A stretch of DNA of 64,000 bases, from assembly GCA_902618855.1 (NCBI GenBank), contig CACNCD010000001.1:62001-126000 (forward strand), in the 5' to 3' direction. Below the pieces are notes generated by a model. It worked only from the letters and a program-made list of their open reading frames with translations, ran no database searches and was not told the origin of the DNA. Source of the DNA: an uncultured Pelagibacteraceae bacterium. GTDB taxonomy: Bacteria > Pseudomonadota > Alphaproteobacteria > Pelagibacterales > Pelagibacteraceae. The translations under genes and the position numbers were made by a program. Of this stretch, positions 11,509 through 55,703 are shown piece after piece (positions within the stretch are counted from its first letter, which is position 1; every line of letters starts with the position of its first letter).

Positions 11509-11910
11509 CTAGAACTTTAGATAGGCTTTCTTTAAATCTACCAAAGGATGATTTGGAGACATTTGAAATTTGACTAGTAATTCTCTAGCTATCATGTCTC
11601 TATCTTGTTGATTATCTGGTAATTTTATTTTTTTAGGAATAGTAACCCAACCATTTGCATTTCTATCAAAAACTGCAGGCCTATCCTCTTCATATCCCAT
11701 GTGAACATCTTCTAACCAATTAAGATCATCCCATCCCATATGTTCTATATATTTTTTTAAGAAAGGAGTTAGTCTTTTATAATCAGGCAACAAATTGACG
11801 TCATATCTATAACCGATAGTCTGACCAATCATTTTTTCACGTGCAGTCTCTTTTTTCTTGCCTAGTTGGCCTTTATTTTCTTTTTTTTTGGTTTTCTTTT
11901 TTTTTGCCAT
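11509..11910 (-). CDS. Lys-rich uncharacterised protein at the end of the mgs cluster
   Basis: 133 residues: a roughly 25-residue poly-basic head (MAKKKKTKKKENK...) followed by a compact domain with IGQTIGYRYDVNLLPDYKRL, HMGWDDLNWLEDVHMGY and a C-terminal ADHPLVDLKK-like end (NHPLVDLKKAYLKF). It starts 6 bases after the mgsC/glxD-type gene, whose product also begins with a basic Lys/Asn-rich head (MAKKKNGKNNGK). Co-transcription suggests a role with the N-methylglutamate-synthase-like complex, perhaps as a small subunit or assembly factor. No family is recognised. Confidence 0.65.
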   Translation of the reverse strand: MAKKKKTKKKENKGQLGKKKETAREKMIGQTIGYRYDVNLLPDYKRLTPFLKKYIEHMGWDDLNWLEDVHMGYEEDRPAVFDRNANGWVTIPKKIKLPDNQQDRDMIARELLVKFQMSPNHPLVDLKKAYLKF

Positions 11911-11916
11911 ATCTAT

Positions 11917-13317
11917 TTAAATTTTATGAAAATCATCTACACCAACAGTATGATTAGTTCCTGATAATGGAACTTTTGCCAGTGCTGATGCTTCCATCGT
12001 TAGTGCAGCCATATCTTCCGGCTCTAAAGAGTGAATATTTGTTTTTCCACAAGCCCTTGCTAATAATTGTGCTTCTAAAGTCATTGTGTGTAAATAATTA
12101 TAAACTCTTAACGCAGCATCATCAGGATTTAATCTTTTTCTAAGTTTTGGATCTTGTGTTGCAACACCCACTGGACATCTACCAGTATGACAATGATAAC
12201 AATGTCCCGCTGGCACTCCCATTTCTTTTTCAAAATTAGATTCTGGTATCTCTTTATTACAGTTCAGCGCAATCATTGCGCCCGTTCCGATTGCAATAGC
12301 ATCAGCTCCTAAAGCTAAAGCTTTTGCCATATCAGCACCGTCTCTTACGCCGCCAGCATAAATAAGTGTAACTTTTCCAGTTTTACCAACATCATCAATT
12401 GCTCTTCTTGCTTCTCTTATAGCGGCTATTCCAGGTATACCAGTATTTGCTGCAGCAATGTGTGGCCCTGCTCCAGTTGATCCTTCCATACCGTCAAGGT
12501 AAATAGAGTCTGGATCACACTTAGCAGCCATACGAACATCATCATAAACTTTTGCTGCTCCAAGTTTTAACTGAATTGGAACTTTATTTTTTGTTAATTC
12601 TCTAAGTTCTTGAACTTTTAAAGCTAAATCGTCCGGTCCTAACCAATCAGGATGTCTAGCAGGAGATCTTTGGTCAATACCAGCGGGTAAAGATCTCATT
12701 TCTGCTACTTGGTCAGTAACTTTTTGACCCATTAAGTGGCCACCCATACCAACCTTTTGTCCTTGTCCAATGAATACTTCTATTCCATCTGCAAGCTGCG
12801 CATGATGAGGATTAAAACCGTATCTCGATTGAATACATTGGTAATACCATTTTTCTGAATATCTTCTTTCATCTGGTATCATTCCACCTTCTCCAGAACA
12901 TGTAGCTGATCCAGCCATTGTTGCACCTCTTGCTAAAGCTGTTTTAGCTTCATAAGAAAGAGCACCAAAACTCATTCCAGTAATATAAACAGGTATATCT
13001 AATTCAATAGGATTTTCACATCTAGGTCCTATTACTGTTTTTGTTTCACATTTTTCTCTATAACCTTCAATTACAAATCTTGTCAAAGTACCTGGTAAAA
13101 AAACCAAATCATCAAAAGTAGGAATTTTTTTCATTAATGCCATTCCACGCATTCGGTATCTTCCTAATTGTGCTTTAATATGTATGTCGTCAATTACTTC
13201 AGGGGTAAATATTGCATTATACCCTAATAAACTTTTATTTCTTTTTGCAAACTCACTCTTTCCATTTGAGTGACCATTACTTTTACCGTTATTTTTTCCG
13301 TTTTTTTTCTTTGCCAT
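11917..13317 (-). CDS. mgsC: Glutamate synthase-like FMN subunit (MgsC/GlxD type)
   Basis: 466 residues, the FMN-binding TIM-barrel domain of glutamate synthase. Visible features are GMSFGALSYEAKTALARGA, the glycine-rich FMN region (GSTGAGPHIA, LIYAGGVRDGADMAKALALG) and a Cys cluster CYHCHTGRCPVGVATQDP near residue 376 that matches the iron-sulphur segment of GltB-like proteins. With the next two genes it forms the three-part set known as MgsABC (N-methylglutamate synthase) or GlxBCD in rhizobia. The reaction would transfer an alkylamine or ammonia to make N-methylglutamate or glutamate. An AAGGAGCT ribosome site lies within the end of mgsB, and the stop/start nearly touch. Confidence 0.88.
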   Translation of the reverse strand: MAKKKNGKNNGKSNGHSNGKSEFAKRNKSLLGYNAIFTPEVIDDIHIKAQLGRYRMRGMALMKKIPTFDDLVFLPGTLTRFVIEGYREKCETKTVIGPRCENPIELDIPVYITGMSFGALSYEAKTALARGATMAGSATCSGEGGMIPDERRYSEKWYYQCIQSRYGFNPHHAQLADGIEVFIGQGQKVGMGGHLMGQKVTDQVAEMRSLPAGIDQRSPARHPDWLGPDDLALKVQELRELTKNKVPIQLKLGAAKVYDDVRMAAKCDPDSIYLDGMEGSTGAGPHIAAANTGIPGIAAIREARRAIDDVGKTGKVTLIYAGGVRDGADMAKALALGADAIAIGTGAMIALNCNKEIPESNFEKEMGVPAGHCYHCHTGRCPVGVATQDPKLRKRLNPDDAALRVYNYLHTMTLEAQLLARACGKTNIHSLEPEDMAALTMEASALAKVPLSGTNHTVGVDDFHKI

Positions 13318-14171
13318 TATATAGCTCCTTTTTTTTCTGTTGGTTCTAAAGCGTCATAATTCCACAGTTTTTTACCTGCAACAATTTTTGTCATTTTAGA
13401 AACATCAAAATTATTACCAATCTCCGCAACTTTAAGTTTTCTAATTAACCATTCTATATCATTTTTTGTCATGGGGGCTTCTACCGCATCACTTCCAAAT
13501 GATCCAATTTTCCCTCCAACATATATTGTTCCGTCATACATAGAGTCTCCTAGGTTAATACCAACATCACCTAATATAACTATTCTTCCTCTTTGCATCA
13601 TAAAACCAGTAAATGCACCAGCATCACCTCCGACGATTATAGAGCCTCCTTTTTGATCAATTCCAGTTCTTGCCCCAACACTTCCTTTGCAAATCAAATC
13701 TCCACCTCTTATAGCAGCTCCAAAACATGAGCCTGCATTTTTTTCTATTACTACTTTACCCGCCATCATATTTTCGGCACAAGACCAGCCAACACGGCCG
13801 TTTACTCTAACTATTGGCCCATCAATTGATCCAACTCCAAAATATCCTAAACTTCCTTCAAAAATTAAATTAAGTTTATTTAGTATTCCAACTCCTAAAC
13901 TATGTTTACCTTGTGGATTTTTAATAACTATGGTTCCGTAACCTTCGCTCATTAAACGATCAATCTTTTCATTAGCTTGTTTGCAATCCATGTCTTTAAC
14001 ATCCAACTCAGTTCTTTTATTAAAATCGACGTCATGAGTTCCCCAATAAAAGAAATTCTCTGCTTCATCAGGATTAAAAAATTTTTGCTGAGTTTTTCCT
14101 GTTAAAACTTCAGAGTGCAAGCCCATTGATTGGGCTTTTGTTTTTTTTGTATCTGTTTTTAGATTTGCCAT
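13317..14171 (-). CDS. mgsB: GXGXG-domain subunit of glutamate synthase-like complex (MgsB/GlxC type)
   Basis: 284 residues. The C-terminal two thirds shows the repeated right-handed beta-helix of the glutamate-synthase alpha subunit (GXGXG motifs): KIDRLMSEGYGTIVIKNPQG, GKVVIEKNAGSCFGAAIRGG, GGDAGAFTGFMMQRG and GTIYVGGKIGSFG. In GltB this domain is structural. Here it is a separate polypeptide, as in MgsB/GlxC. It overlaps the mgsA stop by 13 bases and abuts mgsC, so all three are one translation-coupled unit. The first 60 residues are an N-terminal extension compared with the shorter rhizobial GlxC. Confidence 0.86.
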   Translation of the reverse strand: MANLKTDTKKTKAQSMGLHSEVLTGKTQQKFFNPDEAENFFYWGTHDVDFNKRTELDVKDMDCKQANEKIDRLMSEGYGTIVIKNPQGKHSLGVGILNKLNLIFEGSLGYFGVGSIDGPIVRVNGRVGWSCAENMMAGKVVIEKNAGSCFGAAIRGGDLICKGSVGARTGIDQKGGSIIVGGDAGAFTGFMMQRGRIVILGDVGINLGDSMYDGTIYVGGKIGSFGSDAVEAPMTKNDIEWLIRKLKVAEIGNNFDVSKMTKIVAGKKLWNYDALEPTEKKGAI

Positions 14172-15100
14172 ACTTTTACTTCTCCATCAAATGGGTCGTA
14201 AGTATCTATTTCTTGCGGAAGAATAGATCTTATAGCTATTTCCTCAGAACCCATCGCAACCAATTCATCAGATTCATACAATACTAATGGTTTTGCAGCC
14301 ATAGTATCTTTTGCCATTCCTAATGAATCTTTTGTTGCAACAAAATATGTAAAAACACCATCAAGTCCTGTTAGAGATTCTTTCATTCCTTCTTCTAAAG
14401 TTGCACCGTTTCTCATTTTTTCTGCAAGAAAAACTGCAATCAACTCAGAATCACATTCAGACATAAATCTCATACCTTTATTTTCAAGAACTCTTCTGTT
14501 ATTCCAATAATTCGTCAATTGACCGTTATGGACTACAGATACATCAGCAAAAGGGTAGCCCCAGAAAGGGTGGGCTGATTTAATATCTACACCTGACTCT
14601 GTTGCCATTCTTGCATGTCCAATACCGTGTGTGCCTTGTACTTTGTTTAAACCATATCTTTCAGATACAGCTGTTGCATCTCCTAAATCCTTTATAAGTT
14701 CAAGGGATTTTCCAATTGAAAGTATTTCAACACTTTCTATACTTTCAAGAGCTTTTGAAAATTCCATTAAATCATTATCATATTTCATTTCATATCTGTA
14801 AGAATATGGGGTCAGTCTATCTTCTTTAACAATTGTTGCACCTAATTCAGAAAGTTTTTTATCTACAAGTTTTTTTCTTTCATCGTAAACACTTTCATCT
14901 TCATTTACCGAAGTACTTCCTTCACCCACATTTTCTCCAACTTTAAATCTTAAGATAAAATTTTGGCCATCATTATTGGCATAAAGGGCATATCCAGTTG
15001 AGTCTGGACCTCTATGTTTTAAGGCCTGAAGCATATTTTGAAGTTCTTCACCAACGTTTGATGATTTACCTCTATGAATTAGTCCAGCTATTCCACACAT
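14159..15100 (-). CDS. mgsA: Class II glutamine amidotransferase subunit (MgsA/GlxB type)
   Basis: 313 residues beginning MCGIAGLI: the exposed Cys after the initiator Met is the N-terminal nucleophile of class II (PurF/GltB-type) amidotransferases, which fixes the start at 15100. A good AAGGAA ribosome site precedes it; the frame stays open upstream into gmaS, but that start would bury the Cys. Other matching blocks are LKHRGPDSTGYALY, HARMATES and HNGQLTNYWNNRR. The subunit supplies the amine to the FMN partner. In N-methylglutamate synthesis, methylamine from gamma-glutamylmethylamide would be passed on instead of ammonia from glutamine. Confidence 0.9.
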   Translation of the reverse strand: MCGIAGLIHRGKSSNVGEELQNMLQALKHRGPDSTGYALYANNDGQNFILRFKVGENVGEGSTSVNEDESVYDERKKLVDKKLSELGATIVKEDRLTPYSYRYEMKYDNDLMEFSKALESIESVEILSIGKSLELIKDLGDATAVSERYGLNKVQGTHGIGHARMATESGVDIKSAHPFWGYPFADVSVVHNGQLTNYWNNRRVLENKGMRFMSECDSELIAVFLAEKMRNGATLEEGMKESLTGLDGVFTYFVATKDSLGMAKDTMAAKPLVLYESDELVAMGSEEIAIRSILPQEIDTYDPFDGEVKVWQI

Positions 15101-15122
15101 ATTTTTTTCCTTCTTTAATTTA

Positions 15123-16592
15123 TTAAGGCAAACAATCCAAGTATGTATCAAGATCCCATTGCGTAGTCGCACCTAAGAATTTTTCCCACTCATCATTTTT
15201 ATACCAGTGAAAAACTTTATACATTTCATCAGGCATTGCCGATTTAATAACTTCATCTTCCGCCAATCTATCTAAGGCTTCACCTAAGCTTAGCGGTAGT
15301 TTTTTTACATCTTTCCCAGCTTTTTTAGCTTCATACATACTTCTAGACTCTGGCTTAGATGGTTTTAGATTTTTTGAAATACCATGGTCACAAGCTTTCA
15401 ATAAAGCTGCACCTAGTAAATAAGGATTATGCATTGAGTCAACTGATCTATATTCAAATCTTCCTGGAGCAGATACTCTTAATCCACAAGTTCTATTTTG
15501 ATATCCCCAATCAGCATAAACTGGAGCCCAGAATCCTTGATCCCAAAGTCTTCTGTAGGAATTAACAGTTGAAGATCCTAAAGCAGTCAAAGCAGGCAAG
15601 TGCTCCATTATTCCTGCAATGGATTGTAAACCAATTTTACCAGGTAACTGCATATCTTTAGTGTCAGGCATAAATGTATTTGTGCCACCTTGCACATAAC
15701 CAAATACTTCCTCTACTCCTGGTAGTTGTTTATGACCCAATTTGTTTGTTACAACTTTTCCACCTTTCCATAAAGACATGTTAGTATGGCAACCACTTGC
15801 AGATACACCCATAAAAGGTTTTGTCATAAAACATGCTATTAAATTGTGTTCTCTAGCTACTTGCGCACAAATTTGTCTATAAGTAGAAAGTCTGTCAGCG
15901 TTTCTTAAAACATTATCAAATGTCCAGTTCAACTCTAACTGTCCTGGAGCATCTTCATGGTCACCTTGTATCATATCTAAACCCATGGCTGACGCGTACT
16001 CAATTACCTTCATAAATACAGGTCTTAATGATTCAAATTGATCAATGTGATAACAATAGGGTTTAGAGAAACCTGAGCCTGTGGGACTTCCATCAGGATT
16101 TTTTGTCAGCCACATCATTTCAGGTTCAGTACCAACTCTCAATTCTAAACCATGTTTTTTCTGAAATTCATCCATAAATATTCTTAGGTTTCCTCGACAA
16201 TCAGAAGTTAAATGTCCTCCTGGATTTTCTCTTTCTTCTCTGTTTCTAAAACATGTAACAAAAACTCTTCCAATTCTTTTGTCCCAAGGTAATTGACAGA
16301 AAGTTTCTGGATCAGGTATACCAACTAATTCCATTGCTTCAGGACCGTAACCGATATAATTTTTATGTCTGTCTACAAATAAGTTTGCAGTAGATCCATA
16401 AACTAATTGAAAACCTTTTTCAGCTGTTCTTTCCCAATGATCTGCAGGAATTCCTTTTCCAACAACACGTCCTGTTACAGATATAAATTGGTAATAAATG
16501 TATGTAATTCCTAATTCGTTTATTTTTTCTCTAACTTTTTTTACCAGTTTTGCTCTACCTGGTTGGTTCACATGTTTTTCTAGATCTGTCAT
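15123..16592 (-). CDS. gmaS: Glutamine synthetase-type ligase, probable gamma-glutamylmethylamide synthetase
   Basis: 489 residues of the GS fold: VGTEPEMMWL (metal Glu), GDHEDAPGQLELNW, SASGCHTNMSLWKGG, NSYRRLWDQGFW and SAPGRFEYRSVDSMHNPYL. It sits directly ahead of mgsABC (22-base gap), the same order as glnT-glxBCD or gmaS-mgsABC clusters, and this context suggests ATP-dependent ligation of methylamine to glutamate. It is about 45 residues longer than typical GmaS and differs from the shorter GlnT-like protein encoded at 6.3 kb, so either could be the true methylamide synthetase. The start at 16592 has a GAGGGG ribosome site; a longer in-frame option adds nine unlikely residues. Confidence 0.8.
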   Translation of the reverse strand: MTDLEKHVNQPGRAKLVKKVREKINELGITYIYYQFISVTGRVVGKGIPADHWERTAEKGFQLVYGSTANLFVDRHKNYIGYGPEAMELVGIPDPETFCQLPWDKRIGRVFVTCFRNREERENPGGHLTSDCRGNLRIFMDEFQKKHGLELRVGTEPEMMWLTKNPDGSPTGSGFSKPYCYHIDQFESLRPVFMKVIEYASAMGLDMIQGDHEDAPGQLELNWTFDNVLRNADRLSTYRQICAQVAREHNLIACFMTKPFMGVSASGCHTNMSLWKGGKVVTNKLGHKQLPGVEEVFGYVQGGTNTFMPDTKDMQLPGKIGLQSIAGIMEHLPALTALGSSTVNSYRRLWDQGFWAPVYADWGYQNRTCGLRVSAPGRFEYRSVDSMHNPYLLGAALLKACDHGISKNLKPSKPESRSMYEAKKAGKDVKKLPLSLGEALDRLAEDEVIKSAMPDEMYKVFHWYKNDEWEKFLGATTQWDLDTYLDCLP

Positions 16593-16659
16593 TTTCCCCT
16601 CATAGTATTTTAAGATCAAAAAGGTAACTGAAAATAAAACTTCTGTCTACTCAGATAAA

Positions 16660-24167: not shown

Positions 24168-26500
24168 TATGATCTAACTCTTGTTTTTTGAGGATCAAAA
24201 TGGGGGAATGGAACTATCTTTGCTGGTATTCTCTTTTGATGACCATCAATTTTTCCTACCTCAACCTCAGTTCCAACTCCAGAATGACCTACATCTATTC
24301 TGCATAAAGCAATATTTTTATTTAAAGTTGGAGATATACATCCGCTTGTTATTATTCCGACTTGAGATCTACCAATGTGTACACAATCACCATGATTAGC
24401 TTTTTCTTTACTAACTAATTCAAGACCAACTAATTTTTTTTGTGGATTTTCTTTTCTTTTTATTAAACTTTCCTTGCCAATAAAATCCTCTGTCTTTGTT
24501 TTTAATGGTACTGTGAATCCAACACCAGCTTCAAAAGGATCAACTTGTCCATCAAACTCATTTCCAAACAAAATTAAACCTGCTTCAATTCTTAATAAAT
24601 CAAGTGCTCCAAATCCTGCGGGTATTAGACCTTCGTCTCGTCCATTTTCCATGACAACATCCCAAACTTTTGGTGCATCAGACGGATGACACCATATTTC
24701 ATAACCTAATTCTCCTGTATATCCAGTTCTTGATATCATTAATGGTATTCCACTTAATTCTTTAACTCTACAAATTGTGAATCTAAACCACTGTAATTCT
24801 GATATTTTTGGTTGGGTTGGAGGTGTAAATATAAATTTTTCTAGAATTTTTCTGCTATTTGGACCTTGTAAGGAAATGTTATTTATTTGATCAGTAGAAT
24901 TTTTAATTCGGACTTTAAAATTCTTTTTCTTTGCTTGTTCTTTCAACCATTCTCCAGCATATTCATCTCCACAGATCCATCTAAAACCATGATCGCTCAT
25001 TTTTAATAACGTTCCGTCATCAAACATTAGTCCATTTTCATAACACATAGAGGAATATACTACTTGCCCAACTGAAAGTTTTTTAATATTTCTAGTTAAA
25101 GTATAATTCATTAATTCTTCAGCATCTGGCCCAAGTATTTCGAATTTTCTTAAAGATGAAAGATCAATAATTACTGCTTTTTCTCTACAGGCATTATATT
25201 CATTTATTAACCCGTGTTTTGTATAATCGTTTGGCAACCAGTAACCTCTAGCGTCAACAAAATTTCTTGTAAGTTTAGAAGTACGTTCATAGAAACCCGT
25301 ATTTTTTGTAAGTTTTGGTTCAGAGTCAGTTTTCATTCTAAAAGCAAATGATTTAGTAAATTCCTTTTTTTTATCATAAGTTCTAACAAAAATATCAGTC
25401 GGATTCCATGAATTACATGGATCAATATCGCTTGGACATGCTGATGTTCCGCAAGTTAAATCTTTAAGTGCTCGCATTATTACATAATCTCCAGGTCTTG
25501 CAAAAGACTCGTCTGAAAGAACAGAGTTTTGCCCTCCTGCGGAGGTGTTAAAGAAAAGGTTTATTGCATGCCATCCCTTTTGACGTTTCACTCCGAATTT
25601 CTCCATTGAGTCGCTTAGATTATCCGAACAGTTTGGATGCCCAAAATAACCTGAATCCTCATAGTATTTTGCAGTACATGCTAAATTAAAAGTATCATGC
25701 CTTCCTACTGTATCTCTAATTACCTCTACCAAAGGCTCATGATCGGTATCGTAAAATTTTGAATATAAACCAGGACCAGGAAAGGTATTTCCCATAAAAG
25801 TTCTCGTAGTTTGCCAATCTAAACCTTTTTCGATTCCTTTATTAAGCTTGTTTGTATCGAAAGCAACAAAATCAGAGCATTGTCTTCCAGTTGGACAAAT
25901 AATTTGAATATAATCACCTTCTTTCACTTCAAATGATATAGCGGTTTGTTTTTCTATATTTGTTTCATTTAAAGGATCAAACATGGGATCAGGTATTATA
26001 GAGTGTTCTTTATCATTTATAATATTTGCTCTTTTAACAAACAACGTTAAGTCTGTAGGAGGATTTTGTTCATGAACCAGCATTTCATTTCCCGGAGCAG
26101 CAAAGACACAATAACATTTATCTTTTGACTTTAATTTTACTTTATCTCCCCAAGGAGTGTCTTTATCAAAGACTACCGAGGACTTTGATTTTAAAATATC
26201 GAGGTTTCTCTTCTTAAGTTGATAAGAGGCAATTTTTGAGCTTTCATCTTTTTTAGTTAAAATTTTTTTTATTTCTGAGTCTGTTTTATTTTCTTTTAGA
26301 TTTAGAATACCTACTTCAGATTTGCCATCTTTATTGAATACTGCAATTTCACAAATTTGATTTCCCTCATTATTCACGATTTCAATTTCATCTTCTGGAA
26401 GAATTTGAATACCGGTTAATCCACCACCATTTACAACATATCTTTCAACTCCAGGTGGTAGCACATTTAATCCTGGTTCTTTTATTTTAAGACTAGTCAT
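24167..26500 (-). CDS. tdm: Trimethylamine N-oxide demethylase (aldolase), two-domain
   Basis: 777 residues. Residues 1 to about 400 are a DUF1989-type domain: ICPTGRQCSDFVAFDTN near 201, a Cys at 275, and TCGTSACPSDIDPCNSW near 349 with candidate zinc ligands (inferred). Residues about 420-777 are a GcvT-like folate-binding domain (YGALDLLRIEAGLILFG-like block, VGIITSGCISPTL). This fusion is the hallmark of Tdm, which splits TMAO to dimethylamine and formaldehyde, with tetrahydrofolate able to accept the C1 unit. It is divergent from the TMAO-binding-protein gene across a 112-base promoter region, with a MarR-like gene downstream. Confidence 0.93.
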   Translation of the reverse strand: MTSLKIKEPGLNVLPPGVERYVVNGGGLTGIQILPEDEIEIVNNEGNQICEIAVFNKDGKSEVGILNLKENKTDSEIKKILTKKDESSKIASYQLKKRNLDILKSKSSVVFDKDTPWGDKVKLKSKDKCYCVFAAPGNEMLVHEQNPPTDLTLFVKRANIINDKEHSIIPDPMFDPLNETNIEKQTAISFEVKEGDYIQIICPTGRQCSDFVAFDTNKLNKGIEKGLDWQTTRTFMGNTFPGPGLYSKFYDTDHEPLVEVIRDTVGRHDTFNLACTAKYYEDSGYFGHPNCSDNLSDSMEKFGVKRQKGWHAINLFFNTSAGGQNSVLSDESFARPGDYVIMRALKDLTCGTSACPSDIDPCNSWNPTDIFVRTYDKKKEFTKSFAFRMKTDSEPKLTKNTGFYERTSKLTRNFVDARGYWLPNDYTKHGLINEYNACREKAVIIDLSSLRKFEILGPDAEELMNYTLTRNIKKLSVGQVVYSSMCYENGLMFDDGTLLKMSDHGFRWICGDEYAGEWLKEQAKKKNFKVRIKNSTDQINNISLQGPNSRKILEKFIFTPPTQPKISELQWFRFTICRVKELSGIPLMISRTGYTGELGYEIWCHPSDAPKVWDVVMENGRDEGLIPAGFGALDLLRIEAGLILFGNEFDGQVDPFEAGVGFTVPLKTKTEDFIGKESLIKRKENPQKKLVGLELVSKEKANHGDCVHIGRSQVGIITSGCISPTLNKNIALCRIDVGHSGVGTEVEVGKIDGHQKRIPAKIVPFPHFDPQKTRVRS

Positions 26501-42304: not shown

Positions 42305-43561
42305 ATGCAAAAATACTCAGTATTTAGTTTATTTAAGAATGCCTTGAAGGGTCATAAAGATTGGGAAGTTGCCTGGAAAGACCCAAATCCTAAAGAAGAA
42401 TATGATGTCGTTATAATTGGTGGCGGTGGCCATGGTTTGGCTACAGCATATTACCTAGCTAAAGAACATAACATTACTAATGTTGCGATAGTAGAGAAGG
42501 GTTGGATTGGCGGAGGTAACGTAGGTAGAAATACAACAATACTAAGATCAAATTATATGCATGATGAAAATGGCCTTTTCTATGAAAAAGGGATGGAGTT
42601 ATGGAGAAATATGAGTCAAGAGCTCAACTTTAATGTGATGTTTTCACCAAGAGGCATTATTAATTTAGCTCATTCCGATGCTCAAATGAATGCATATGCT
42701 CGAAGAGGAAATTCCATGAAATTAAATGGAATTGATGCAGTGCTCTTAGGAAGAGAAGAAATAAAAAAAATGGTTCCAATATTAGATTTTTCTGAAAACG
42801 TTAGATTTCCAATTTTTGGTGGTCTAATGCAACCAAGTGGAGGAACTGCAAGACATGATGCGGTTGCTTGGGGATACGCAAGGCAAGCTGATTCCATGGG
42901 AGTTGATATAATTCAACATTGCGAGGTAACTGGATTTGATGTTGTTAATGGAAAAATAAAAGGAATACAAACTTCCAGAGGAAACATAAAAGCTAAAAAA
43001 GTTGGACTATGTGTAGCTGGAAGTACTTCAGTTTTAGCAGAGATGTTAAATATGACATTGCCTTTAGAAACTCATTTATTACAGGCTTGTGTATCTGAAC
43101 CAATTAAACCAATACTTGATCACGTTGTAACTTTTGGTGCAGGACATTTTTATTGCAGCCAATCTGACAAAGGCGAGATGGTAATGGGTGGAGATTTAGA
43201 TGGTTATAATAGTTATGCTCAAAGAGGGAATTTACCAACTTTGCAACATGTACTTACAGAAGGAATAGCTATGCTTCCGTTTTTAAGTAAGCTTAAAATG
43301 TTAAGAACTTGGGGTGGAATTATGGATATGTCAATGGATGGATCACCTATAATTGATAAGACACACATAGAAGGATTATATTTAAATTGCGGTTGGTGCT
43401 ACGGTGGTTTCAAAGCCACACCAGTTTCAGGTTGGACATTTGCTCATACAATTGCCCAAGACAGAGTTCATGATTTAAATGCTGGATTTAATTTAAACAG
43501 ATTTAATACAGGACACTTAATTGATGAAAAAGGCCTTGGTACAAAAACTTGGATTTCTTAA
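42305..43561 (+). CDS. soxB: Sarcosine oxidase/N-methylglutamate dehydrogenase beta subunit
   Basis: 418 residues, DAO-family flavoprotein. VVIIGGGGHGLATAYYLAKEH, the covalent-flavin-region style GGNVGRNTTILRSNYMHDEN, and C-terminal DGSPIIDKTHIEGLYLNCGW with CYGGFKATP match heterotetrameric SoxB/MgdA. It oxidises the N-methyl amino acid, sarcosine or N-methylglutamate, with transfer of the methyl carbon to folate by the alpha subunit. The order B-D-A-G with overlaps or a few bases between genes is characteristic. Sarcosine versus N-methylglutamate cannot be decided from sequence alone. Confidence 0.92.
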   Translation: MQKYSVFSLFKNALKGHKDWEVAWKDPNPKEEYDVVIIGGGGHGLATAYYLAKEHNITNVAIVEKGWIGGGNVGRNTTILRSNYMHDENGLFYEKGMELWRNMSQELNFNVMFSPRGIINLAHSDAQMNAYARRGNSMKLNGIDAVLLGREEIKKMVPILDFSENVRFPIFGGLMQPSGGTARHDAVAWGYARQADSMGVDIIQHCEVTGFDVVNGKIKGIQTSRGNIKAKKVGLCVAGSTSVLAEMLNMTLPLETHLLQACVSEPIKPILDHVVTFGAGHFYCSQSDKGEMVMGGDLDGYNSYAQRGNLPTLQHVLTEGIAMLPFLSKLKMLRTWGGIMDMSMDGSPIIDKTHIEGLYLNCGWCYGGFKATPVSGWTFAHTIAQDRVHDLNAGFNLNRFNTGHLIDEKGLGTKTWIS

Positions 43562-43828
43562 ATGTTGTATATTGAATGTCCTTATTGCGGTTTAAGATCT
43601 CAAAATGAATTTGCTTATGGTGGAGATGGGACTGTAAAAAGACCAACTTTAAATAAAGAAGTCTCAGATAAGGAATGGGATAATTTTGTTTATAATAGGA
43701 AAAGCCCCAGAGGGAAACATGTTGAACTTTGGCATCATATTTCTGGATGTAGACAGTGGATTAAAGTTCAAAGAGATACTGTAACCCATGAAATTTTTAA
43801 AACAGTGAGTGCTGACAAAGAAATATAA
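43562..43828 (+). CDS. soxD: Sarcosine oxidase-type delta subunit
   Basis: 88 residues. Zinc ligands fit the SoxD pattern: CPYCG at residues 6-10, a GGDGTVKRP segment, and HHISGCRQW near residue 60 that supplies His and Cys. The subunit is structural, bridging the alpha and beta chains in the tetramer. It starts at the base after the soxB stop and ends 3 bases before soxA. Confidence 0.92.
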   Translation: MLYIECPYCGLRSQNEFAYGGDGTVKRPTLNKEVSDKEWDNFVYNRKSPRGKHVELWHHISGCRQWIKVQRDTVTHEIFKTVSADKEI

Positions 43829-43831
43829 ATC

Positions 43832-46828
43832 ATGAGTCAAACTTATAGATTAAATAATTCTGGACAAATAAATAGAGATAAAAAAATATCTTTTAAATTT
43901 AATGGCAAAAAATATTTTGGTTATGAGGGTGACACCCTAGCGTCTGCATTGTTGGCTAATGGCATCCATCTTGTAGGTAGAAGTTTTAAATATCACCGAC
44001 CAAGAGGATTTTTTGGTGCTGGGGTTGATGAGCCTTATGCAATTGTTCAAATGGTTAGAAATAATGAAACAGAACCAAATGTAAGAGCTACAGAACAAGA
44101 GTTATTTGAAGGACTGGAGGCAAAAAGTGTAAATTGTTGGCCAAGTGTTAATTTTGACATTGGTGCAATAAATAATTTTTTTAATAAATTTTTGCCAGCA
44201 GGTTTTTATTATAAAACATTTATGTGGCCAAAAAGTTTTTGGTATAGAATTTATGAACCATTTATCAGGAAAGCAGCTGGATTTGGTGTAGCATCTACAA
44301 AATACGATAGCGAAAGATATGAGCATAAATATGAGTATTGTGATTTATTAATAGCAGGTTCAGGTCCAGCAGGTTTATCAGGGGCCTACGCAGCAGCAAA
44401 AAATGGAGCACGTGTAATTTTAGCTGAGGAAAAACCTCGTTTTGGAGGAAGTTTATTAACAAGTGAGGTCAATATTGGTAATCAGAGTGGTAAAGACTGG
44501 GCAGAAAAAATCATAGCTGAGCTTAAAGAAATGCCAAATGTAACTGTCAAAAATAGATCACAAGTTTTTGGTTATTACGATCATAACATGTTGGTGATGT
44601 CAGAAAAAGTAAGTGATCACTTACCTAAAACCAAAAAATTTAGTCCAAAACAAAGACTTTGGTACATAAGAGCTAAAGAAGTCTTAATTTCTTCAGGCTC
44701 AATCGAAAGACCTATAGTATTTGGAAATAATGATACACCAGGTGTTGTTTTAGCCTCTGCTGCAAAAGAATATTTAAAAGTTTATGGAGTTTTAGTCGGA
44801 AAAAAACCATTAGTCTTCACTAATAATGATAGTGCGTACGAAACAGCTATTGAATTTAAGAAAAATGGAATTGACCCAATTATATTGGATTCAAGAAACG
44901 CTCCAAAATCAGAAATTATAGAAGAAGCAAAAAATTTAGGAATAGAGATTAAATTTTCATATGTAGTTGTTGCAGCAAATGGTTATAAAAAAGTTAAATC
45001 TGCACAGATAGCCCATATTTCGTCCGATAAAAGAAATTTAGGAAAAATAGAAAAAATAAATTGCGATTGTATTTGTGTATCAGGTTTTTGGACACCAACT
45101 ATTCATTTATCATCTCAATCAGGAAATAAAACGAAGTTTGACGAAAAAATTGATGCCTTTGTTCCTGGTAAATCAAAACAAAACGAAACAACGGTTGGAT
45201 CTGCAAGTGGTATATTTAATCTAGAGGAGACAATTAGTACATCATTTGAAAAAGGATATCAGCTATCAAAAAAAATTACTAATAATGATAATAAAGTTTC
45301 AGTACCTCAAGTTTCTGAAAAAAAATTTACAAATCATGATAAATTTTGGTGTGTCCCACTCCCAGATAAAAAGAATTTTAAGAGATTTTTAGATTTTCAA
45401 AATGATGTCACAGTTTCTGATATAGAGCTTGCTCTCAGAGAAGGATACAGATCAATAGAACATGTAAAAAGGTATACCACATTAGGTATGGCAACCGACC
45501 AAGGCAAAACTAGTAATCTTAATGGGCTTCAACTAGTCTCTGATGTAGAAAACAAAGTAGTACCTTCTGTAGGGCATACTACCTTTAGACCTCCTTACAC
45601 ACCTGTTTCAATTGGAGCAATAGTCGGTAGAGAAATAGGAAAGCATTCTAAACCAACCAGAAAATCACCCATGCATTCATGGCATGAAAAAAATAATGCA
45701 GTATTTGTTGATGCTGGAATGTGGCTAAGACCACGATATTATAAAAAAGGAAACGAAGGTTTATTTGAAGCCTCAAAAAGAGAAGCAGAAAATGTTAGAA
45801 AAAATGTTGGGGTTTGTGATGTTACTACATTAGGAAAAATAGATATCAAAGGTCCAGATGCAGCAGAATTTTTAAATAGAGTTTATACAAATGCATGGTT
45901 AAAACTCCCAGTTGGAAAAGCAAGATATGGAGTAATGTTAAGGGAAGATGGAATAGTAATGGATGATGGTACAACAACGAGAATTTCTGAAAATCATTAT
46001 CATATGACAACAACAACTGCACAAGCTGCAAATGTATTGTCTCATTTGGAGTATTATTTACAATTAGTTTGGCCAGACTTAAATGTAAATGTTGTTTCTA
46101 CAACTGAACAATGGGCAGGAGCAGCAATAGCTGGACCGAAATCAAGAAGCCTGCTTCAAAAATTATTTCCAAATAAAGATCTATCTAATGAGGGTTTACC
46201 TTTTATGGGATATACAGAAGGAGATTTATTTGGTGTTCCTGCAAGAATTTTTCGAATTTCCTTTTCAGGCGAATTAGCTTACGAGTTAAATGTTCAATCA
46301 GATTTTGGAAATTTTATGTGGGAAAAAATAATTGAAGTAGGAAATGAGTTTGAAATTCAACCATATGGAACTGAAGCTTTATCAACTTTAAGGATTGAAA
46401 TGGGACATGTAGCGGGATCTGAGTTAGATGGAAGAACTATTCCTTACGATAATGGTCTTGATGGATTAATAAGTAAAAAGAAAGATTTCATTGGAAAAAG
46501 ATCACTAAATAGAGAAGCTTTTATTGCACAATCTAGACAGAAAGTTGTTGGAGTTGTTCCATTAGATAAAAAAACAAGCATCCCAGAGGGTTCTCATTTA
46601 GTTAAAGATGCGTCAGCTAAATTACCAAATCCAAAACTAGGTCATATCTCGGCATCGTGTTGGAGTGTTGAATATAATAATCCTTTTTCATTAGCTATTG
46701 TAAAAGATGGAAAAAATATGATAGGCAAAAAATTATATGCACTTTCACCACTTAAAAACAAATCAATTCCTGTTGAGATAGTATCCTCACATTATGTAGA
46801 TCCTAAAGGTGAAAGGGTGAGATCATGA
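43832..46828 (+). CDS. soxA: Sarcosine oxidase/N-methylglutamate dehydrogenase alpha subunit
   Basis: 998 residues with three parts. Residues 1-100 hold an N-terminal domain (FKYHRPRGFFGAGVDEPYA); residues about 165-400 a NAD/FAD pyridine-nucleotide-disulphide oxidoreductase domain (LLIAGSGPAGLSGAYAAAK); residues about 610-998 a GcvT-like domain with YGTEALSTLRIEMGHVAGSE, which binds tetrahydrofolate and captures the methyl group as methylene-THF. This is the SoxA/MgdC layout. Loss of methyl groups here feeds fhs, encoded divergently. The stop overlaps soxG by 4 bases. Confidence 0.93.
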   Translation: MSQTYRLNNSGQINRDKKISFKFNGKKYFGYEGDTLASALLANGIHLVGRSFKYHRPRGFFGAGVDEPYAIVQMVRNNETEPNVRATEQELFEGLEAKSVNCWPSVNFDIGAINNFFNKFLPAGFYYKTFMWPKSFWYRIYEPFIRKAAGFGVASTKYDSERYEHKYEYCDLLIAGSGPAGLSGAYAAAKNGARVILAEEKPRFGGSLLTSEVNIGNQSGKDWAEKIIAELKEMPNVTVKNRSQVFGYYDHNMLVMSEKVSDHLPKTKKFSPKQRLWYIRAKEVLISSGSIERPIVFGNNDTPGVVLASAAKEYLKVYGVLVGKKPLVFTNNDSAYETAIEFKKNGIDPIILDSRNAPKSEIIEEAKNLGIEIKFSYVVVAANGYKKVKSAQIAHISSDKRNLGKIEKINCDCICVSGFWTPTIHLSSQSGNKTKFDEKIDAFVPGKSKQNETTVGSASGIFNLEETISTSFEKGYQLSKKITNNDNKVSVPQVSEKKFTNHDKFWCVPLPDKKNFKRFLDFQNDVTVSDIELALREGYRSIEHVKRYTTLGMATDQGKTSNLNGLQLVSDVENKVVPSVGHTTFRPPYTPVSIGAIVGREIGKHSKPTRKSPMHSWHEKNNAVFVDAGMWLRPRYYKKGNEGLFEASKREAENVRKNVGVCDVTTLGKIDIKGPDAAEFLNRVYTNAWLKLPVGKARYGVMLREDGIVMDDGTTTRISENHYHMTTTTAQAANVLSHLEYYLQLVWPDLNVNVVSTTEQWAGAAIAGPKSRSLLQKLFPNKDLSNEGLPFMGYTEGDLFGVPARIFRISFSGELAYELNVQSDFGNFMWEKIIEVGNEFEIQPYGTEALSTLRIEMGHVAGSELDGRTIPYDNGLDGLISKKKDFIGKRSLNREAFIAQSRQKVVGVVPLDKKTSIPEGSHLVKDASAKLPNPKLGHISASCWSVEYNNPFSLAIVKDGKNMIGKKLYALSPLKNKSIPVEIVSSHYVDPKGERVRS

Positions 46829-47412
46829 AAAGCCAATCTCCACTAAATGAAATTTATAAAAAAGGATTATATGGTGATTATGAAAATAAAAACGAAGAGA
46901 ATCTTATAAAGATTCAAGAGGTTAGTAATTTAAGTATTTTCCAAATAGTAAAATATAAAAATTCAAAAGTCTCAACTAATGATTTAGATGTAGATGGACT
47001 TAAATTAAGTGAAAAAACAAATTCCGTTATGACAAACGGAAAAACAAGAATCTTATGGCTTGGACCAAATAATTGGCTAGCAGTATCAGAGGATAAAAAT
47101 TTATTTCATAAAGTAAATAAAAATGCCAAAGAAACCGATTTTGCAATCACAGATTTGTCTAACTCTAGAACAATAATTGAAATTGAGGGTAAATTAATAA
47201 AAGAAGTATTAAAAAAAGGGTGCCCATTTAATTTTAATGAATTAAATAAAAACAATTGTATCAACTCAGTTTTTCACGGGATTACAATAACAATTGATAT
47301 GTTAGAGGACTCCCCAGAAAAAATAAGATTATTTGCACTTAGAAGTTTTGGAGAGTCTTTTTACCACTCAATTACAGATGCCAGTTTAGAATTTGGTTAT
47401 CAAAGTATTTAA
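46825..47412 (+). CDS. soxG: Sarcosine oxidase-type gamma subunit
   Basis: 195 residues, small GcvT-like fold: TRILWLGPNNWLAVSED near residue 73 and ITDLSNSRTIIEIEG, with the C-terminal SFGESFYHSITDASLEFG. SoxG is the fourth subunit of heterotetrameric sarcosine oxidases and is weakly conserved in general. Its gene overlaps the soxA stop, and it ends at 47412, the base before the convergent methyltransferase stop at 47413. Confidence 0.85.
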   Translation: MKSQSPLNEIYKKGLYGDYENKNEENLIKIQEVSNLSIFQIVKYKNSKVSTNDLDVDGLKLSEKTNSVMTNGKTRILWLGPNNWLAVSEDKNLFHKVNKNAKETDFAITDLSNSRTIIEIEGKLIKEVLKKGCPFNFNELNKNNCINSVFHGITITIDMLEDSPEKIRLFALRSFGESFYHSITDASLEFGYQSI

Positions 47413-52320: not shown

Positions 52321-53289
52321 ATGAATTATAAAATTGATAATCTACAATATTGCAAATGGTCAAGAGAAGTATTTAAAATTAACCGTGAGGCAGGACTCGA
52401 TGCAGTTCATGTCACTGTAGTTTATCATGAGGATTATGATGAATTTTTAGCAAGGGTTAAGGAGTGGGATAAACATTTTCAAGAAAATTCAGATTTAATT
52501 TTTTTAGGAAAATCGCATGAAGATATAGAGAGGGCAAAATTAGAGAAAAAAACTGCAATTTTTTTTGGTTTTCAGAATTGTTCGCCAATTGAGGATGATA
52601 TAGGGCTTGTAGAAAAAATTTATGAAAATGGATGTCGGTTTATGCAACTTACTTATAACAATCAGTCTCTTTTAGCGACCGGTTGTTATGAGAAAAACGA
52701 TAGTGGTGTTACAAATTTTGGAAAGGAAGCTATTAGAGAAATGAATAGATTAGGTATAGTGATTGATATGTCTCACTCTGGCGAAAAAAGTACATTAGAT
52801 GCAATTGAGATAAGCGATAAACCTATAGCTATTACTCATGCAAATCCAAATTTTTGGTATAAGGCTTTAAGAAATAAATCAGATCAACTTTTAAAAACTT
52901 TAAGTGAAAGCGGAGGAATGTTAGGTCTATCTTTATATTCTCATCATTTAAAAAACGGAAGTGATTGTACTTTAGATAGTTTTTGTGAGATGGCAGCAAA
53001 AACTTGTGAACTTATGGGAGTTAAAAATGTTGGAATTGGATCTGATCTCTGTCTAAATCAACCTGACAGTATTGTTGAATGGATGCGGAATGGAACTTGG
53101 GCAAAGAAAAAAAATTATGGAGAGGGATCAAAAAAAAAACCAGGTTTTCCTAAACAACCTGATTGGTTTATAGATGCTAGAGGATTTAAAAATTTAGAAA
53201 ATGGACTAAAGAAAGTAGGGTTTAACGAAATGGAAGTTAACAATATATTGGGTAACAATTGGTATAATTTTTACAAAGGTATAAATTAG
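52321..53289 (+). CDS. Membrane-dipeptidase (M19) family metallohydrolase
   Basis: 322 residues, TIM-barrel amidohydrolase of the renal dipeptidase family. DAVHVTVVYHEDYDEFL, FFGFQNCSPIEDDIGL, RFMQLTYNNQSLLATG, IDMSHSGEKSTLDA and ITHANPNFW match the family's metal and substrate blocks. No signal peptide, so it acts in the cytoplasm. Relatives occur beside N-methyl amino acid catabolic genes, so the substrate may be a small N-substituted amide rather than a dipeptide. The three following genes are coupled (1-base overlaps, then an 8-base overlap), forming a four-gene unit. Confidence 0.85.
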   Translation: MNYKIDNLQYCKWSREVFKINREAGLDAVHVTVVYHEDYDEFLARVKEWDKHFQENSDLIFLGKSHEDIERAKLEKKTAIFFGFQNCSPIEDDIGLVEKIYENGCRFMQLTYNNQSLLATGCYEKNDSGVTNFGKEAIREMNRLGIVIDMSHSGEKSTLDAIEISDKPIAITHANPNFWYKALRNKSDQLLKTLSESGGMLGLSLYSHHLKNGSDCTLDSFCEMAAKTCELMGVKNVGIGSDLCLNQPDSIVEWMRNGTWAKKKNYGEGSKKKPGFPKQPDWFIDARGFKNLENGLKKVGFNEMEVNNILGNNWYNFYKGIN

Positions 53290-54950
53290 TGGAAGTTAAA
53301 CTTAGAGATCCAAAAATTGTCATGAAGTTGTCAAAACTTGGATCATTTCATCAATCAAAATTATCATTTTTGAGATCATTTTTAAAAGAGTTTAGTGATT
53401 GGGATTTTAAAAGAGACTTATTTGATTTAGATGAGAATGGATATGGAAAAGCTGTTTATTCCTTAAAAAAAAATAATAAAATTTATTCCTTAGTTTGTTT
53501 TGCGAATAAATTAAGTGATTTAGAAAGATCTGATAGAGTAATAGCAACTAAATGGGACGCTGCTTTTACTTTACATGATGGAATTCCTACAAAAACAGAT
53601 ATAGAAAGACTGCAAAAAAATGTACCAAAACAAGAAGTTGGCAGACTCTCTTATAAAGAATTAACTCTATCTAGAGCAAATAAATCAATTAGAATTTTTA
53701 ACTATATTGTTGAATGCTTATCTAAAGGCAAACAACCAGATAAAAAAAAAGTTTTTGATGTGGGGTATTTATATAGAACTACAGCAGTTTATGGTTCAGG
53801 AAAATTTGGATTAGCAGATAGATTTAGAATAAAAAATAGAAATGAAATATGTGGTCCGTTCAGGTTAGAAATGATGTTAGTTTATTTAGTTAGACAATTT
53901 ACTTTTGATCAAGTTAATCATATTGCTAAGCAAAAAAATCCTGGTAGAGCTGTAGAACTTGATAAGGAGATCTGCAGAAATCTCGGCATAGGAAATTCTA
54001 CTGGATTAGGAATGGCTCCTTTTATAGTTAATCATCCAACACTCTTAAATAATTGGATTATGTCTAGAGAAATGTCTCTTAAAAAAATAAGGGAAATCAA
54101 AAATGTAAAAAATCAGGACGCAGAAATTTTTAAAGATATTTTAAAAAAATCACTTAAAAATATATCCTTTTGGAATACAGAAAGCGAATTCCAAAAAAAA
54201 AAAATAGTAGGTCTATATAAAGATTTAAAAAAATTGATTGATTTTTTGGACAAAGATTTTGATTTTAAAAAAGATTATCCCTTTAATGATTTATATGTAT
54301 GGTGTGAAAAAAATCTTAAAGACGAGTGTATTGAATATGCCGTTTCAACATTTATGGAGCCATATGATGATATTATTAACCCTTTCATTTATCAAATGAG
54401 TGCAGATGAAGATAAATATTTTACAATTCCTGCACAAAAAAATATTGAAAATTTACGTAGTATAATAGAAAAAAATTATTCAGAAATTCTTAAAATTGAT
54501 TTTTCAAAAGAGGAAAATAATCAAAATTTTTGGTTTATATCAAAAAATAAAGAAGAGCCAAGATTGGCAGATAGATACAAAGAGCAAGGTGCAGAATTAG
54601 AACAGCCACTTGCAATTGCAAGGGACATTTCAAGGCTTTATCAAAGAATTTCAAAAATAAAAAATTCATTAAGTGTCGGAAAATTTTTAATTGAAAATAA
54701 CGATTTAAGACATGCAATAAGAAGAGTATTTATCTCTGAATTTTTTCCATACTCAGAGATTCAAGATAATACCATTGGTTCAAAATTAATGCCTATAGAC
54801 ATGTTAAGATTAAAACTATCTTTCTTTGGCGCAGTTAAGTTTGATCCAAGATCAGATAAGTGGTTAAGAATTTGTATGTTTCAGGGAGCGCCTTTACCAA
54901 ATGAACGTCAATCTTATGATAGTGGATGGATTTATAATTCTATTAATTAA
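53289..54950 (+). CDS. Large uncharacterised protein, 553 aa
   Basis: No family is recognised. It begins at a GTG sharing its first base with the dipeptidase stop. The N-terminal 120 residues are basic and alpha-helical; the middle contains a Gly/Arg-rich block GRRxLG-like (FGLADRFRIKNRNEICGPFRLEMM near 175) with several conserved-looking Phe, Arg and Trp residues, and the C-terminal has RHAIRRVFISEFFPYSEIQD and a final SYDSGWIYNSIN. No signal peptide, membrane helix or catalytic fingerprint is obvious. The length and even composition argue for a single enzyme-like fold. It may act with the dipeptidase and the DUF3726 protein. Confidence 0.75.
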   Translation: MEVKLRDPKIVMKLSKLGSFHQSKLSFLRSFLKEFSDWDFKRDLFDLDENGYGKAVYSLKKNNKIYSLVCFANKLSDLERSDRVIATKWDAAFTLHDGIPTKTDIERLQKNVPKQEVGRLSYKELTLSRANKSIRIFNYIVECLSKGKQPDKKKVFDVGYLYRTTAVYGSGKFGLADRFRIKNRNEICGPFRLEMMLVYLVRQFTFDQVNHIAKQKNPGRAVELDKEICRNLGIGNSTGLGMAPFIVNHPTLLNNWIMSREMSLKKIREIKNVKNQDAEIFKDILKKSLKNISFWNTESEFQKKKIVGLYKDLKKLIDFLDKDFDFKKDYPFNDLYVWCEKNLKDECIEYAVSTFMEPYDDIINPFIYQMSADEDKYFTIPAQKNIENLRSIIEKNYSEILKIDFSKEENNQNFWFISKNKEEPRLADRYKEQGAELEQPLAIARDISRLYQRISKIKNSLSVGKFLIENNDLRHAIRRVFISEFFPYSEIQDNTIGSKLMPIDMLRLKLSFFGAVKFDPRSDKWLRICMFQGAPLPNERQSYDSGWIYNSIN

Positions 54951-55558
54951 TGATAAGTTTAAGTGAAATAGATACAACAGTTAAGAGAGCAACTAAAGCA
55001 ATTGGATTTTCTTGGGGTATTGCAGAGGAAGTGGGAAAATGTATTAGAACTTTAGAAATGTTTGGTTTACCTGGAATAAAAAATCTAAATCAATATTACA
55101 AAGTTTTTGCTAATAAAAAGTTTCAAAATGTAAGCCTTATAGCAAAATCAAATATATCAAAGGTATCTTATTGCCCTATAATTTCTGGTGTAAATTTTTT
55201 AGATCAAATTCATACTTTACAAAATTTAGAAGAAATAGAATTTGAAAACTTCGGTTTTCCTATCCTTTTCATACCATTTTTAAGTAGATCTTCCGAAATA
55301 ATAGGAAAAAGAATTTTTTTAAAAATTGACGATAAGGAATTTTTATTAAATTTTAATCAATCAATTTTCTCTAATTATTTTAATAAACATGTAATTGAAA
55401 ATGCAAATATAATTAAAATATCTTTTATTGAAAACAAAGATTCTTTTAGTGATCAAGATTGGCAAGACCTTTATAAATTATCTGAACAAACTTTTGTAGA
55501 GGAAACAGATGAATTAAAACAAAAAGCAGCTGGTGCAGGATTAACTGATAATGATTAA
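54950..55558 (+). CDS. DUF3726-like protein
   Basis: 202 residues. The start MISLSEIDTTVKRATKAIGFSWGIAEEVGKCIRTLEMFG resembles the DUF3726 opening pattern (EIxxxxxRAxxGxGxxWGxAEE). The rest is a beta-rich region with IPFLSRSSEIIGK and a Lys/Glu-rich C-terminal tail ending AAGAGLTDND. Function is unknown. ATG 54950 overlaps the previous stop by one base. Confidence 0.7.
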   Translation: MISLSEIDTTVKRATKAIGFSWGIAEEVGKCIRTLEMFGLPGIKNLNQYYKVFANKKFQNVSLIAKSNISKVSYCPIISGVNFLDQIHTLQNLEEIEFENFGFPILFIPFLSRSSEIIGKRIFLKIDDKEFLLNFNQSIFSNYFNKHVIENANIIKISFIENKDSFSDQDWQDLYKLSEQTFVEETDELKQKAAGAGLTDND

Positions 55559-55703
55559 TGAAGTAGATAATAATTCAGATGAATTAAACGACATATGTGA
55601 GGATTGTAAAAAAGAGGACATAAGTGTATCTCAAAATTTAATATTAACAGGATTTAAAATTTGTGAGTCTTGTAGACTTTCAAAAAATATTTTTCCAGTT
55701 TAA
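55551..55703 (+). CDS. Tiny CxxC/CxxC zinc-ribbon-like protein, 50 aa
   Basis: A 50-residue ORF with a CEDC pair at 16-19 and a CESC pair at 38-41, spaced as in a zinc ribbon, between a Glu/Asp-rich head (NEVDNNSDELND) and a basic tail. ATG 55551 overlaps the DUF3726 stop by 8 bases, the same spacing used elsewhere in the window, and the gene ends against the convergent Yip1-family gene (4-base overlap). The paired CxxC motifs make chance coding unlikely. It completes the dipeptidase operon. Confidence 0.65.
   Translation: MINEVDNNSDELNDICEDCKKEDISVSQNLILTGFKICESCRLSKNIFPV

Follow-up and report, generated by a model that had tools for sequence, protein, structure and literature searches.

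Introduction

Could four overlapping genes of a SAR11 bacterium form part of a route for the use of an algal osmolyte? The question is raised by a 64,000-nt stretch of DNA from an uncultured Pelagibacteraceae bacterium (SAR11; genome 87.65% complete), hereafter the window, in which a gene quartet encodes an M19-fold protein, a 553-aa protein here named U553, a DUF3726 protein and a 50-aa protein with two CxxC pairs. A sequence-only reading had proposed an undescribed cytoplasmic system, perhaps processing an N-substituted amino acid or amide. Here, we consider it somewhat probable that the quartet represents, in SAR11, a conserved cytoplasmic module that breaks down an N-methylated zwitterion and feeds it to glutamate; the most likely substrate is homarine (N-methylpicolinate).

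Conservation of the gene set

As the sequence-only reading had it, the four genes lie on the plus strand, and the gene calls bear out both the positions and the overlaps, that is, 1 base for M19/U553, 1 base for U553/DUF3726 and 8 bases for DUF3726 and the 50-aa gene. The nearest relatives of the window are named Pelagibacteraceae, with U553 identity of up to 99%. A search with U553 found 528 relatives, and conservation in SAR11 was counted over the best 80 SAR11 loci. Because M19, U553 and DUF3726 occur together in 77 of the 80 loci, and all four genes in 73, the coupling of the quartet is not due to chance. The seven remaining loci either lack the 50-aa gene (L041, L066, L086 and L087) or lie at contig ends (L074, L104 and L110). 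The 8-base overlap recurs in 73 of 74 SAR11 loci, while the 1-base overlaps occur in 24/79 (M19/U553) and 22/78 (U553/DUF3726), a 2-base gap being commoner; all of these overlap counts rest on longest-ORF (open reading frame) starts.

With the window's genome included each time, U553 was found in 38 of 118 genomes of the family and 39 of 289 of the class; among 299 genomes of the phylum 25 have it, and 8 of these belong to other classes. Outside the family, 66 loci were picked by U553, which are not independent and many of which have flanks under 10 kb. M19 is present in 61 of them, DUF3726 in 56, and the trio M19-U553-DUF3726 in 52. The refutation proposed with the sequence-only reading, a set that is not conserved or whose genes have different neighbours in relatives, was therefore not borne out. 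These three genes make up the wider core, but the fourth member of the proposed set does not belong to it, since all finds of the 50-aa gene came from SAR11 loci. The SAR11 form thus keeps M19-U553-DUF3726 together, adds the CxxC gene and has a dispersed Ldh gene.

An ordinary operon for a cytoplasmic dipeptidase, in which SAR11 synteny holds unrelated genes as passengers, would also account for the M19 match and for the conserved gene order around the quartet, where purE was found in 78/80 SAR11 loci. However, synteny within SAR11 does not explain a trio kept in other families, nor a dipeptidase the replacement of a metal ligand in every aligned M19 protein (see below), and this explanation is highly improbable.

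Table 1. Quartet, N-methylglutamate dehydrogenase-type set and methylated-amine genes of the window
Feature	Position	Strand	Basis
M19-fold protein, 322 aa, degenerate metal site	52321-53289	+	gene call, Pfam, alignment
U553, 553 aa, no known family, GTG start	53289-54950	+	gene call, Pfam/NCBIfam null
DUF3726 protein, 202 aa	54950-55558	+	Pfam, predicted fold
50-aa CxxC/CxxC protein	55551-55703	+	gene call, alignment, dN/dS
Beta subunit (soxB/mgdA-type)	42305-43561	+	
Alpha subunit (soxA/mgdC-type)	43832-46828	+	tree placement with mgs-linked reference and U553-linked alphas
Gamma subunit (soxG/mgdD-type)	46825-47412	+	above Pfam cut-off, below NCBIfam cut-off
Type III glutamine synthetase	6263-7585	-	618.8 bits
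Ammonium transporter	8728-10125		
ORF, no Pfam match at E 0.001	10283-11467	-	
ORF, no Pfam match at E 0.001	11512-11910	-	
Glutamine synthetase and three-part glutamate-synthase-like set	11917-16619	-	
Trimethylamine N-oxide (TMAO) demethylase match	24170-26500	-	1108.1 bits, curated cut-off 1100

Gene neighbourhood outside the family

What, then, accompanies the core elsewhere? Among the 66 outside loci, an aldehyde dehydrogenase gene occurs in 33, a betaine transporter (BCCT or ProX) in 30, LysR in 28, Ldh in 26, RidA in 14 and an FAD-GCV_T demethylase in 11, two of these being weak. The alpha subunit of the N-methylglutamate dehydrogenase (MGD) type has strong matches in 6, an L147 match of 49 bits having been dropped from what would be 7, and the sarcosine-oxidase type in none. 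The annotated records show the set of LysR, aldehyde dehydrogenase, membrane dipeptidase (M19), BCCT, hypothetical protein (U553), DUF3726 and Ldh; the BCCT gene is placed last in one of them, and Aminobacter has a glycine-betaine ATP-binding cassette (ABC) transporter in its place. In Ruegeria sp. TM1040 the genes for LysR, aldehyde dehydrogenase, M19, U553, DUF3726 and Ldh fall within TM1040_RS02315 to RS02345. The 8 loci from other classes all have M19 and BCCT, none has Ldh, and 3 have weak DUF3726 matches (30-31 bits). Pfam searches of 127 flanking ORFs out of 259 listed (within 5 kb, 150-900 aa, L124-L126 and already recognised genes left out) gave no family in more than three members. 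These neighbours, namely the betaine transporters, the Ldh_2 enzyme and the MGD-type set, agree with the earlier guess that an N-substituted amino acid or amide is processed.

Ldh is found in none of the 14 RidA loci and in 26 of the 52 others (P 4e-4), where some RidA matches score only 25-36 bits. This hints that in Ldh-less clades an imine is hydrolysed by RidA in place of being reduced.

The same module logic could serve another substrate, a betaine or N-methyl heterocycle such as trigonelline, proline betaine or a carnitine-like compound, and the clades of U553 might differ in the compound to which each is adapted. The transporters do vary by clade (BCCT, ProXWV, polyamine-type), the FAD-GCV_T demethylase stands near U553 in the 11 loci mentioned above, and four genomes of one family (f23: G154, G252, G551 and G661) have two U553 copies. 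MGD type and Ldh_2, however, point to N-methylglutamate as a product, and trigonelline in particular is disfavoured by a passage of PMC4207669, in which Sinorhizobium meliloti without pSymA fails to grow on it, whereas the U553 homologue is on pSymB. We regard a different substrate for the SAR11 module as unlikely.

The homologue in question is distant and occurs in L152 (9223-21168, Sinorhizobium pSymB), L153 and L199, in the order IclR-U553-DUF3726-like-M19-polyamine-type ABC transporter; L152 also has an aminotransferase, a succinate-semialdehyde dehydrogenase and two RidA genes. The rhizobial locus is probably a related module for another substrate, for which trigonelline was rejected on the same growth result (PMC4207669).

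Co-occurrence in SAR11

The presence of U553 and its likely SAR11 partners was surveyed in the 118 genomes of the family, the MGD type being defined by more than 1700 bits, plus one 86% fragment. U553 was found in 38 genomes, the MGD type in 39 and Ldh in 39. U553 and the MGD-type alpha occur together in 33 genomes (U553 only 5, MGD only 6, neither 74), and U553 and Ldh in 35 (U553 only 3, Ldh only 4, neither 76). Outside the window's genus (78 genomes) the co-occurrence gives P 0.010 for MGD and 0.003 for Ldh; G324 and G358 are without U553, MGD and Ldh alike. Three genomes, G345, G376 and G384, have MGD and Ldh without U553 and were counted as misses, although an assembly gap is likely in them, because their contigs end 2.7-4.8 kb from MGD, in the direction in which U553 is found in other genomes.

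The SAR11 Ldh, although unlinked to the quartet, is 56% identical to the L115 Ldh adjoining DUF3726 and 50% identical to the L112 Ldh adjoining M19, and is therefore tied to the same pathway. For the cluster aldehyde dehydrogenase, the search, which in SAR11 covered two U553-bearing genomes, found no close copy in G000, G207 or G098 (best 30-33% identity, versus 54-55% in G030/G259).

The MGD-type set and the methylated-amine genes

About 5 kb upstream of the quartet, and outside the quartet itself, the window carries at 42305-47412 beta, alpha and gamma subunits of the kind found in N-methylglutamate dehydrogenase and heterotetrameric sarcosine oxidase. In an unrooted FastTree tree of 13 alpha-subunit sequences, two distant FAD-GCV_T rows included, four of the six U553-linked alphas (TM1040, Phaeobacter 2.10, Aliiroseovarius and L139) group with the window alpha, and the same group (support 0.95) holds the G030 alpha that stands beside gmaS/mgs-like genes, these neighbours having been read by eye. 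The alpha copy linked to a DMGDH-like gene falls apart from this group, and the other two U553-linked alphas (L118 and L186) were placed by best score alone. A second set (type II) is present on contig C5 of the window's genome.

In the TM1040, Phaeobacter 2.10 and Aliiroseovarius records an AraC-type gene (Pfam-checked for TM1040) separates the MGD set from the LysR gene, downstream of the former and on the opposite strand. A passage of PMC13390433 places tmaR, an AraC-type gene, upstream of or beside mgdABCD in Ruegeria pomeroyi; the three genes may be orthologues of tmaR. The same paper, citing Ferrer-Gonzalez et al. 2026, states that Mgd participates in homarine catabolism (PMC13390433).

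By its gene content the window is a methylated-amine region. It holds an ammonium transporter, a TMAO demethylase match, a GmaS-like type III glutamine synthetase and the glutamate-synthase-like set (Table 1). The Glu_synthase protein of this set shares 54% identity with the MgsC-like protein of G030, and the two ORFs without a Pfam match lie beside the set. The quartet might accordingly be an accessory methylamine branch whose substrate is not a heterocycle but gamma-glutamylmethylamide or N-methylglutamate, as the TMAO demethylase, the GmaS/mgs-like genes and the MGD-type set of the window would allow. Near U553 in the 66 outside loci, however, there is a single gmaS-like match (62 bits, L128) and no mgsC match, and to our knowledge the established methylamine route has no step for a betaine transporter, an aldehyde dehydrogenase or an Ldh, which makes such a branch very unlikely.

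The four proteins

The M19 protein matches its Pfam family at E=1e-71, and the fold-family part of the earlier call 'M19 metallohydrolase' is confirmed; the metallohydrolase part is unproven, because one dipeptidase metal ligand is lost. It shares the fold family of membrane dipeptidase (MEROPS M19; DPEP1, 1itq), but Gln85 replaces DPEP1 Glu125, the bridging metal ligand, in 42/42 aligned M19 proteins, and LQY stands in place of the N-terminal HxD motif of dipeptidases. H152, H173 and D242, at the places of the DPEP1 ligands His198, His219 and Asp288, are invariant. The site is likely one-metal or metal-free, so dipeptidase activity is not to be assumed, and the alignment points to an M19 subfamily without the bridging glutamate, described here for the first time. 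The closest structure, 2i5g, an 'amidohydrolase' from P. aeruginosa (197 bits), has in common with the window protein the GFQN motif and the DxSH histidine.

For U553, neither Pfam nor NCBIfam gave a match above cut-off, in agreement with its description as a protein without a recognised family. An alignment of 47 diverse members has 28 invariant columns, nine of which are arginines; no Cys or His is invariant, H249 nearly so, and there is therefore no obvious metal site. The profile of these members matches only V-ATPase subunit C and coiled-coil (best E 0.014), and hhalign against Ldh found nothing. The U553 tree groups the SAR11 proteins with L124/L126, which have ProXWV, aldehyde dehydrogenase and Ldh, and with L139, which has a long branch and an MGD-type set. 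Scattered weak Pfam/NCBIfam matches of single members were taken as chance. The AlphaFold model (44 sequences, from the window and SAR11 loci) was too poor for assignment of a fold, with a mean predicted local distance difference test (pLDDT) score of 59.6, and its PDB matches (best Foldseek E 0.35, best Z 6.2) were set aside; that no match stands out does not speak for a new fold.

The DUF3726 call is secure (PF12525, 76.2 bits versus a gathering score of 22.1; E=1.8e-21), and the fold is a prediction with pLDDT 88.1. In VIA-align the model matches Ldh_2 enzymes with Z 8.8-10.8 over about residues 1-179 (next row 5.5; best Foldseek E 0.012), 156-176 of its 202 residues aligning to chains of 312-361. 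hhalign joined 59 N-terminal columns of DUF3726 and Ldh_2 (E 2.4e-4, probability 43%), but a narrower SAR11 DUF3726 profile did not confirm the match (E 0.028, probability 1.7%), and Pfam gives the protein no Ldh_2 match. The Ldh_2 family (PF02615), which includes ureidoglycolate dehydrogenase, YiaK and Delta1-piperideine-2-carboxylate reductase, has an NAD-binding domain and an SHG motif, the latter invariant in 14/14 aligned cluster-type Ldh; DUF3726 has neither. The model thus suggests a new observation, a DUF3726 fold resembling Ldh_2 minus the NAD domain. The C-terminal tail (AGAGLxDND-type, window 55520-55558) is strongly conserved, with Ala194-Gly195 invariant in 41 sequences. None of the papers searched names DUF3726.

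The 50-aa protein, previously called zinc-ribbon-like, keeps C16xxC19 and C38xxC41 in 21/21 aligned sequences (21 of 76 found, window included), but has no Pfam match above cut-off and no NCBIfam match, and hence none to a known zinc-ribbon family. With the first three codons excluded, the median ratio of nonsynonymous to synonymous substitution rates (dN/dS) of 322 usable pairs is 0.17, which indicates a small gene under purifying selection, also new here. Neither this protein nor the other three match NCBIfam above cut-off.

A proposed route for homarine

How could such a set convert homarine? The gene set, its linkage, the co-occurrence and the predicted fold of DUF3726 are results of the analysis; from them we infer the substrate, the order of the reactions and every activity as follows. 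Since N-methylglutamate has six carbons and homarine seven, a carbon of the ring has to be lost on the way. The betaine transporter would take up homarine, and U553 would open the N-methylpyridinium ring, DUF3726 perhaps serving as its non-catalytic partner; cleavage beside the nitrogen would yield an N-formyl group together with an aldehyde and an enamine. The aldehyde dehydrogenase may then oxidise the freed aldehyde, the M19 protein may cleave the N-acyl (formyl) bond, and the Ldh_2 reductase, from the family of Delta1-piperideine-2-carboxylate reductase, may convert the N-methyl imine or enamine to N-methylglutamate, from which MGD would release glutamate and a one-carbon unit. With the hydrolase, aldehyde dehydrogenase and Ldh_2 assigned, U553, with or without DUF3726, is left for ring opening and becomes the candidate first (ring-attacking) enzyme. 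More tentatively, and in our view rather unlikely as a whole, U553, alone or held by DUF3726, could be a new enzyme family that opens the ring without a recognised flavin, haem or iron domain, while clades would differ in the fate of the N-methyl imine, which Ldh_2 would reduce to N-methylglutamate in some and RidA would hydrolyse to 2-oxoglutarate and methylamine in others.

Several points weigh against the homarine reading. No computed result names the substrate, and the degenerate metal site of M19 would weaken the amide-hydrolysis step. Within the window's genus (40 genomes) the Fisher tests give P 0.15 (MGD) and 0.07 (Ldh), because nearly all members have everything, and the co-occurrence tracks the genus split; G348 and G392 have U553 but neither the MGD-type alpha nor the Ldh ortholog. 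With 16 of 18 cluster-linked Ldh the SAR11 Ldh shares no more than 29-36% identity, and these include the Ldh of its close SAR11 kin L124/L126. The exclusion of Ldh and RidA remains a hint, because it rests on about three changes on the tree, and the polyamine-type transporters of the rhizobial homologues imply that substrates vary. Only 6/66 outside loci have the MGD-type alpha within 10 kb of U553, and in the window the set lies 5 kb upstream; such linkage does not prove a shared pathway, and with gmaS/mgs-like genes and a TMAO demethylase in the SAR11 genome, MGD may serve methylamines.

If SAR11 uses homarine via the quartet, very abundant ocean heterotrophs would have a path by which an algal osmolyte is turned into glutamate. 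Passages of PMC12817926 describe homarine as one of the main osmolytes of a diatom and report its drawdown by Ruegeria pomeroyi, the mean lifetime being at most 2 h. The module core holds U553 and DUF3726, both directly testable, and U553 is the part that merits further work.

Comparison with the homarine operon

Is the system undescribed, as first supposed? This is doubtful. A search of the same papers for the gene combination found nothing. A homarine operon of five genes and a regulator, in Rhodobacterales and SAR11, has reportedly been described in 2026 (Ferrer-Gonzalez et al., Nat Microbiol 11:1531), which would fit the set described here, and N-methylglutamate is reported to be its product, which fits the passage on Mgd. 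That paper probably covers the gene set, and the module is probably that of the published operon. The SAR11 set would differ from it in having no linked aldehyde dehydrogenase, Ldh or LysR and an extra CxxC gene. A feature that the two may share is the link to Mgd (PMC13390433), given the MGD-type set upstream of the quartet.

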